DNA of 34,110 bases from Clostridia bacterium (GTDB lineage Bacteria > Bacillota > Clostridia > Oscillospirales > Acutalibacteraceae), in NCBI GenBank assembly GCA_017430535.1, contig JAFRMR010000016.1, forward strand, positions 1 to 34,110, read 5' to 3'. The position numbers and the translations under genes were made by a program. A model generated the notes under the pieces. It had not been told where the DNA came from, did not search any database, and was given only the letters and a program-made list of their open reading frames with translations. Positions 10,568 to 11,370 of the stretch are shown here, in pieces. How positions within the stretch are numbered: the first letter of the stretch is position 1; each line of letters starts with the position of its first letter.

Positions 10568-10689
10568 ATAATGCCAAAAAGCAACCTGATGAAAGCTTAT
10601 TTCAAAAGGTAGAGATTATGAAAAAGGTTTGTTTTTATCATATTCAAAAAAATATTTGTTAAAATAGTTGAATTATCTTCTGAAATTTG

Positions 10690-10718
10690 TTGACTTTACA
10701 GACATTTTTATGTATTAT
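10690..10718 (+). promoter_or_regulatory. Sigma-A promoter inside the invertible segment, pointing away from the operon
   Basis: TTGACT (10690-10695), 17 bases, then TATTAT (10713-10718); each box matches the consensus at five of six bases. In the orientation given, it fires toward the recombinase's 3' end, antisense to every gene nearby. After inversion of the segment it would point into the operon with a leader of about 80 bases. Confidence 0.6.
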
Positions 10719-10741
10719 AAATATGTATTTCATTGTTCCAA
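10714..10741 (-). promoter_or_regulatory. Competing promoter candidate inside the invertible segment, pointing into the operon
   Basis: On the minus strand TTGGAA (10741-10736), 16 bases, then a perfect TATAAT (10719-10714). Its -10 box overlaps that of the opposite promoter, and its -35 lies in the inner arm of the right recombination site. Because of this candidate the ON/OFF state of the sequenced orientation cannot be decided by eye. Confidence 0.4.
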
Positions 10742-10764
10742 AAAGTCTACCTTTTGAAACAAAA

Positions 10765-11370
10765 TCAGCCTTTGCTCTGCAACTCATATTCCCTTAATCT
10801 GCGATAAAATGTAGTCTTGCTGAGGCCTGTTTTTTCGATTGCCTCGGCAAGTCTTATTTTACCCTGCAAAAAGTCCTTCGCAATCTTTTCAAATCCCGGC
10901 GGCGCTTCAATCACAGGTCTCCCGAATTTTATACCCTTTGCTTTTGCCGCAGCTATACCCTGTGCTTGTCGCTTTTTGATGTTGTCGCGCTCGTTTTCGG
11001 CAACAAAAGACAGCACGGCGAGAAACAGATCGGAAATAAAAGTTCCGAGCAAGTCTTTATACGGGCGTGTGTCGAGAATCGGCATATCGATAACGCAGAT
11101 ATCAATACCGATTTCTTTTGTCAGATAGCGCCACTGCCACTGTATTTCTTCATAGTTTCGCCCGAGCCGGTCGATGCTCAGTATGTAGAGCAAATCGCCG
11201 GCTCTTAACTTTTTCAGCATTTTCTTATACTGCGGCCGCTCGAAATCTTTGCCAGACTGCTTATCAATAAAGATGTTTTTTGCAGGCACATTCTTTCCCT
11301 GCATTGCAATTAACTGTCGGTCTTCGTTTTGATCTATACTTGACACCCTCACATATCCGTAAATATTCAT
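10765..11370 (-). CDS. Serine recombinase of the DNA invertase/resolvase family
   Basis: A 201-residue site-specific recombinase. The catalytic domain starts [18 protein letters not shown], with the nucleophile serine at position 10 or 11 and the active-site arginines in [11 protein letters not shown] (68 and 71). The E-helix reads [19 protein letters not shown], followed by the usual FGRP junction and a C-terminal helix-turn-helix ([16 protein letters not shown]). The length equals that of Hin/Gin/Pin invertases and Tn3-type resolvases and is far below that of large integrases. AGGAGG sits 8 bases before the ATG. Its stop codon lies 5 bp from a 26-bp dyad repeated in inverted orientation 135 bp away, which favours an invertase acting on that segment. 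It could instead be the resolvase of an element. Confidence 0.92.

Follow-up and report, generated by a model that had tools for sequence, protein, structure and literature searches.

A candidate invertible promoter with an adjacent serine recombinase before a cohesin operon of a Clostridia bacterium

The window analysed here is a stretch of 34,110 nucleotides (positions 1 to 34,110 of contig JAFRMR010000016.1, assembly GCA_017430535.1) from a Clostridia bacterium of the Acutalibacteraceae, whose relatives are found in animal guts. We consider it highly likely that a 132-bp segment of this window is an invertible promoter, which is flipped by the adjacent serine recombinase and switches an operon of cohesin genes. 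The preliminary description had proposed this combination of an invertible promoter, its own invertase and a phase-variable cohesin operon, and the proposal is supported by a second copy of the module in the same genome, by site pairs in relatives, by their matched centres, by the recurrent place of the promoter and by an inversion among congeners. Judging from these sequence comparisons, the switch module is real and very probably functional.

In the proposed mechanism, the recombinase would bind the two inverted sites, cut at the central AG, rotate and rejoin the ends, and the segment would thereby be flipped. In the deposited orientation the promoter would fire toward the 3' end of the recombinase gene, leaving the cohesin operon OFF, and in the flipped orientation transcription would cross the left site and enter the three genes of the operon (ON). 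Cells would thus vary in the display of a collagen-stalked surface complex of cohesins and dockerins. The recombinase, the two sites and the promoter would form one compact cassette, which is placed before different operons in relatives.

The locus and its second copy

The features of the locus are as follows.

1..903, minus strand: Mob_Pre relaxase gene, running off the contig; such a gene flanks both module copies
2208..2251, minus strand: strong hairpin directly 3' of the operon (region -33.8 kcal/mol, z -7.6)
2315..6988, minus strand: operon gene 3, 1557-aa protein with cohesin, dockerin, LRR_5 and InlB-type repeats
7001..7561, minus strand: operon gene 2, 186-aa probable lipoprotein with a cohesin-like domain (lipobox by eye)
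7581..10553, minus strand: operon gene 1, 990-aa secreted collagen-like protein with a C-terminal cohesin
10600..10623, plus strand: left (cargo-side) recombination site, perfect repeat at 10600-10613, centre AG, inner half imperfect
10614..10745, no strand: putative invertible segment of 132 bp, bracketed by the repeats; the related segment is inverted in congener G043
10690..10718, plus strand: sigma-A-type promoter match TTGACT-17-TATTAT, found by promoter scan and segment scoring; same -35 in the second copy
10714..10741, minus strand: competing promoter-like match TTGGAA-16-TATAAT, toward the operon, with its -35 within the right site
10736..10759, minus strand: right (recombinase-side) recombination site, perfect repeat at 10746-10759, 5 bp from the recombinase ORF end
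10765..11370, minus strand: 201-aa serine recombinase (invertase) with R8, S10, D67, R68 and R71
11424..11636, minus strand: 70-aa small protein gene upstream of the recombinase, in a stretch kept in both copies

Both arms of the perfect 14-bp inverted repeat that had been described around the 132 bp were located: the left one, TTTCAAAAGGTAGA, lies at 10600-10613, and the right one, at 10746-10759, is its reverse complement without a mismatch. The ORF coordinates agree with the described spacings of 5 bp from the right site to the end of the recombinase ORF (10765-11370, minus strand) and of 46 bp from the left site to operon gene 1 (7581-10553, minus strand). The repeat can be extended to 27 nt at 81% identity. 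The sites had been described as 26-bp imperfect dyads with a TAGA centre; the dyad form stands, but on the basis of the sequence the site is best read as a shorter dyad of 18-20 bp, CAAAAGGT-AG-ACTTTTTG, with the central dinucleotide AG, in which the left site is poor on its inner side. Strand exchange by serine recombinases requires identical central dinucleotides, and AG is the central dinucleotide of both inverted sites of the window.

The preliminary description had also assigned control of the operon to a promoter-bearing segment. A promoter match does lie inside the segment, but the better of the two matches there (10690-10718) is directed toward the recombinase gene and away from the operon, and because of this direction we regard the deposited window as representing the OFF state. 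If the segment were inverted, this match would map to 10669-10641 on the minus strand, about 80 nt before the start of gene 1 by coordinate arithmetic. The arrangement that characterizes an inverton, a promoter inside inverted repeats beside a regulatable gene, is accordingly present at the level of sequence, with the operon starting 46 bp from the left site. The repeat by itself is only mildly unlikely: two perfect 14-bp inverted repeats with 20-400 bp between their arms occur in the window, the other one (7132/7204) falling inside operon gene 2, and at least one such repeat was found in 11 of 200 Markov-sampled shuffles of the window. Likewise, a consensus promoter scan of positions 1-12700 gave 30 matches against a shuffle mean of 30.6, with no excess. 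Because the repeat and the promoter match are weak when taken alone, the case is carried by the comparative evidence.

The recombinase has an intact frame, a Resolvase N-terminal domain (PF00239, 92.2 bits against a cut-off of 23.3) and the catalytic set R8, S10, D67, R68 and R71 of serine recombinases; Pfam calls the N-terminal domain only, and an HTH-like stretch is visible by eye in the C-terminal part. Among seven Resolvase-domain matches in the genome, only those of the window and of its second copy are invertase-sized, and the other five lie in frames of 495-625 aa. The 70-aa protein has a weak DUF6471 match (20.1 bits, cut-off 26.8). The operon genes are separated by gaps of 19 and 12 bp, and the cohesin-like domain of gene 2 is 46% identical to the gene 1 cohesin, without a Pfam call. 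The hairpin at 2208-2251 possibly marks the end of the operon; it has no T-run after it and is absent from the terminator scan list. Beyond the module, an adjoining gene (12603-14006) encodes a 467-aa protein in which a Cro/C1-type HTH and a weak match to HipA_C were identified, and dispersed repeats that recur within the window or are shared with C12 (76-93% identical) occur at window positions 12260-12576, 14066-14159, 14990-15330 and 26947-27150.

The second copy of the module was found on another contig, called C12, of the same genome (2.41 Mb, 27 contigs, 97% complete). Its sites, at 17559-17572 and 17706-17719, are TTTCAAAAGGTAGG and differ from those of the window in the last base of each arm; its recombinase is 89% identical to that of the window, and the module precedes a second cohesin operon. 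When the repeat was searched genome-wide at up to one mismatch, four matches were obtained, all in the two modules, against two for a backward control pattern. The window and C12 segments have diverged, and their alignment, in which the stretch with the -35 TTGACT keeps its orientation, barely exceeds the null (scores of 28 direct and 16 reversed, null maximum 27). Both copies are OFF by segment promoter scoring, and no counterpart of the competing TTGGAA-16-TATAAT match was seen in the C12 sequence. The flanks are alike, at 91% over 1.8 kb on the Mob_Pre side and 85% over 1.5 kb on the recombinase side; unlike the flanks, the operon is not common to the two loci in the DNA comparison. The sequences look as if the two loci were copies of one mobilizable element, with the cargo exchanged, broken at a shared repeat. 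Both contigs begin at the same base, the Mob_Pre DNA of window 1-1800 and C12:1-1802 (locus L189) being 91% identical, and two further above-cut-off Mob_Pre matches lie on contigs C9 and C27. The central dinucleotide is AG in both copies of the module. We had considered that the base differing between the copies might block cross-recombination, and dropped this idea because the base lies outside the AG centre common to both.

Site pairs, promoter placement and an inverted segment in relatives

Three sources supplied relatives of the recombinase: GTDB contigs, of which the best 80 of 97 matches were taken, the genus, with matches in 9 of 45 genomes, and the family, with matches in 54 of 398, the source genome being included in the last two counts. 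The site-pair test was applied to 74 of 78 loci, four being short of downstream DNA and L083-L089 lying outside the set. Downstream of the recombinase, 33 of the 74 loci have a pair of 18-mers with up to two mismatches; such a pair was obtained in 1 of 74 shuffles and in 3 of 71 upstream regions. In a larger set (164 matches, 134 distinct, 127 with enough downstream DNA), such a pair was present in 54 of 127 rows, one locus being counted twice because L143 is the same locus as L104; L143 is retained within the 127 and dropped from the segment, centre and centre-blind tests. In an earlier test the two centres of a pair were equal in 62 of 62 loci, against a permuted mean of 18.7 and maximum of 28, but that test is partly circular because the loci had been chosen by repeat identity. 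In a centre-blind version, the pairs of 126 loci were scored without their two central bases. A score above that of the best shuffle was reached by 41 loci (39 of the 94 with at least 60% recombinase identity and 2 of the 32 below it), and the central dinucleotide was equal in all 41, with six kinds occurring. At a laxer cut the centres were equal in 62 of 76, compared with 7 of 126 for the best pair of each shuffle. The window pair scored 20.0, just under the best shuffle (20.5), and is outside the 41. The loci are related, so that these counts are not independent, and the automatic pairs of L122, L174 and L083, which look like chance, are retained in them.

Of the nine genomes of the genus with a recombinase match, the source genome included, two lack a pair or an intact enzyme. 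No site pair was found for G007 (L103), whose recombinase is 75% identical to that of the window and is followed by other genes, and L103 62-685 is a possible lone remnant. In L105 (G033) the recombinase is truncated, the match covering residues 1-122, and a signal-peptide surface-protein gene follows by eye; this locus is possibly a dead switch.

The place of the promoter was compared in 65 segments, after 8 bp had been trimmed at each site. A scoring without trimming had given 30 OFF, 6 ON and 10 unclear calls in 46 segments; it was muddied because a TTGA of the site arm mimics a -35, and hence the trimming. Five of the 65 segments (L098, L099, L100, L019 and L042) were delimited manually with the help of their site strings, the L042 pair by eye only. 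The best promoter is directed to the recombinase (OFF) in 49 segments and to the cargo (ON) in 7, and is unclear in 9, including L024 (= L180), which had been ON without trimming. In 39 of the 49 OFF segments the distance from the end of the -10 to the recombinase-side edge is 16-29 bp, and in each of the seven ON segments the corresponding distance to the cargo-side edge is 18-35 bp. Although the loci are related and not independent, this is the placement expected of one promoter flipped as a unit. Because, judged by promoter score, only 32 of the 65 segments reach 0.05 against 40 shuffles each, the recurrence of place is a stronger sign than the score.

One inversion was found between species of the genus. 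The segment of G043 (L099) is inverted relative to those of G016 (L098), G022 (L102) and G039 (L100); L099 and two of its three comparators are among the hand-cut segments, and L102 was placed automatically. Against G016, G022 and G039 in this order, the alignment scores of the G043 segment are 132, 141 and 118 reversed and 19, 24 and 19 direct (300 letter shuffles reached at most 27), and the identities are 81.3, 79.3 and 78.9% inverted and 49.6, 51.1 and 48.5% direct. The recombinase side runs in the same direction in all three comparisons (86.8-87.6% identical). On the cargo side, over 400 bp, G043 is alike to G016 (74.5%) and G022 (66.9%) and not alike to G039 (53.7%); at the protein level, the products of the first cargo genes of G043 and G016 share 87% identity. 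By eye, the inner half-sites swap place at the centre between G043 and its comparators. Inversion has happened between species in a related module, whose recombinases in these four genomes are 79-82% identical to that of the window. Among 15 well-aligning segment pairs, 12 have the same orientation and three are inverted, and because all three involve G043, one inversion event is documented. For the window segment itself, inversion is inferred, as are transcription from it, the two switch states and the display of the proteins at the surface.

Genes behind the proposed switch

The switch of relatives precedes quite different genes, such as those of restriction-modification. In 59 of 64 loci, the first mechanically called ORF of at least 80 aa past the cargo-side site has the same strand as the recombinase. 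Between G016 and G039 the recombinase side (86.3%) and the segment (80.3%) are similar, and the DNA past the cargo-side site is not alike (49.6% in the first 400 bp); since both carry restriction-modification genes with Eco57I and ResIII domains, this is a gene change within one class. When ten cargo proteins were submitted to PADLOC, the six from G016 and G039 matched restriction-modification models and those of L014, L019, L059 and L074 gave no match. Polysaccharide genes lie behind the switch of L077 by eye.

Cargo similar to that of the window is carried by G014 (59% identical over residues 2-320), whose recombinase is 72% identical and whose sites are centred on AA; a TnpV-like protein is encoded just upstream of its recombinase (L104 10137-10532). 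In a recombinase tree of 37 rows with at least 66% identity (L093 and L143 left out), the recombinase of the window belongs to a seven-row group (100/99) with C12, G007, which is on a long branch, and restriction-modification-linked recombinases, and that of G014 is outside it. The cargo gene is also present in G002 (61% over residues 1-400), where by eye no site pair precedes it and no recombinase match was obtained at E 1e-40. Domains were also searched in 58 cargo proteins, seven of the 65 loci being left out and a later ORF being taken for L034, L153, L126, L187 and L044: cohesin, dockerin and InlB-type repeats occur in four each, and the collagen domain and LRR_5 in three each. In a selection by eye of ten cargo proteins, cohesin or dockerin domains are present for L016, L179, L180 and L185.

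The two switches precede every above-cut-off cohesin match in the genome; of the seven matches, two belong to the operon of the window and the other five to C12. Three of the C12 matches are in a 2532-aa gene that follows a 68-bp gap with a terminator-like hairpin, and because of this hairpin the dependence of these three cohesins on the switch is less sure. The hairpin (L189 9883-9950 on C12), which separates a 1857-aa gene from the 2532-aa one, possibly lowers the expression of this last cargo gene. The 402-aa product of L009 10522-11730 (C12) gave a cohesin match in the whole-genome family search (39.6 bits) and not in hmmscan, and C25 has one match below the cut-off (21.6 vs 24.1 bits). 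Dockerin matches number nine, eight of them over the cut-off, and four are in the two operons. In G014, all four cohesins are in a same-strand gene run behind its switch. Twelve of 44 congeners were examined, and besides G014, cohesins over the cut-off are present in G002, G004, G008, G015 and G044, none of which has the recombinase at E 1e-40; cohesins therefore do not need the switch.

Alternative explanations and known systems

The recombinase could instead be of the resolvase or transposon type, with the repeat serving as an accessory or binding site and no expression being switched. Its nearest solved relative, the resolvase Tn552 Bin3/Sin (2r0q, E 6e-32), the abundance of plasmid homologues (at least 5000 records, all below 60% identity) and the Mob_Pre genes nearby are in favour of this view, which is nevertheless improbable in our judgment, because the sites are inverted and not direct, the promoter is at a similar place in most segments, an orthologous segment is inverted in a congener, and in 59 of 64 loci the first cargo ORF runs in the direction of the recombinase gene. 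Somewhat less improbable, and still unlikely, is a switch that was once present and is now locked here, with the operon constitutively off or driven by the minus-strand TTGGAA-16-TATAAT match. The presence of that match, the poor dyad of the left inner half-site and the single orientation seen would fit such locking; however, the central AG and the outer half are identical in both sites, the frame and catalytic residues of the recombinase are intact, and one half-site is poor in G016, G022, G039 and G043 too, between which the segment has nonetheless been inverted. That the repeat is a matter of chance, or a terminator-like hairpin after the recombinase, is barely credible: repeats of 14 bp did arise in 11 of the 200 shuffles, but the second copy has this repeat again, altered alike in both arms, and relatives keep equal centres despite diverged arms. 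The fold at 10736-10775 is a weak hairpin (z -1.38).

The invertible promoter, which remains our preferred reading, may be extended to a more general proposal that we regard as tentative and rather doubtful as a whole: a portable and self-contained clostridial phase-switch cassette, made up of a serine invertase, two sites and a single promoter of nearly constant position, which would bring any operon placed behind it under ON/OFF control; a wholly phase-variable cohesin repertoire in this species; and an OFF state in which antisense transcription into the invertase gene damps the invertase and thus favours OFF. Antisense control of the invertase is speculation, arising from the promoter geometry together with the excess of OFF calls; damping in the OFF state would explain why 49 calls are OFF and 7 ON.

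The 2019 description of invertons reportedly underlies the later work on those of gut bacteria. As in gut-bacterial invertons, as far as the available text of PMC11892184 presents them, inverted repeats surround a promoter, an invertase gene is nearby and the cargo concerns the cell surface. The top inverton-invertase link in that text joins inverton group 139 (32 of 33 from Clostridia) to invertase group 35, which is of tyrosine type; here, unlike in that link, a serine recombinase is 5 bp from the site and the cargo is of cohesins and dockerins. The available main text of PMC11892184 makes no mention of 'serine recombinase', cohesin or dockerin. Our literature searches, thin on subscription journals, found no description of a clostridial serine-invertase cassette with a cohesin target; the mechanism of inversion is known, and within the literature searched the family is a variant whose target is of a new kind. 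Mpi, the master serine invertase of Bacteroides fragilis, also flips promoters of surface loci and acts on many distant sites; unlike Mpi, each copy here has one adjacent site pair, and the match to NCBIfam PRK13413 (Mpi) is weak (41.9 bits, far under the cut-off of 272). Hin, Gin and Cin are similar in recombinase size, catalytic residues and dyad sites with a 2-bp centre; the invertase gene here is outside the segment, as for Gin and unlike Hin, whose gene is inside. The switch of CwpV in Clostridioides difficile uses a tyrosine recombinase and acts after the transcription start, unlike the present locus, where the promoter match is inside the segment. The likeness to it is that of a phase-variable surface protein in a clostridium, CwpV being a phase-variable cell wall protein according to the available part of PMC2784873.

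If the proposed switch operates, the above-cut-off cohesins of this bacterium would stand behind two invertible promoters, and a clonal population would consist of builders and non-builders of the complex. Cohesin-dockerin systems are usually thought to be regulated by substrate. One enzyme-site geometry before surface-protein, restriction-modification or, by eye, polysaccharide genes would allow the rules of switching to be compared directly, and the switch family is present in named strains, e.g., Fusibacillus kribbianus (L020) and Faecalicatena faecalis (L028). Homologues of the recombinase extend to phages (191 records, one at 60.3% identity and the rest lower), and the matches include an Enterococcus plasmid and phage MT835780. 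Four of five relatives on viral contigs were examined, and a site pair was found in one, L196 (IMG/VR 3300035516_000911), in which the recombinase is 56% identical to that of the window, the site pair is centred on GTATAC and a promoter recognized by eye points in the ON direction.
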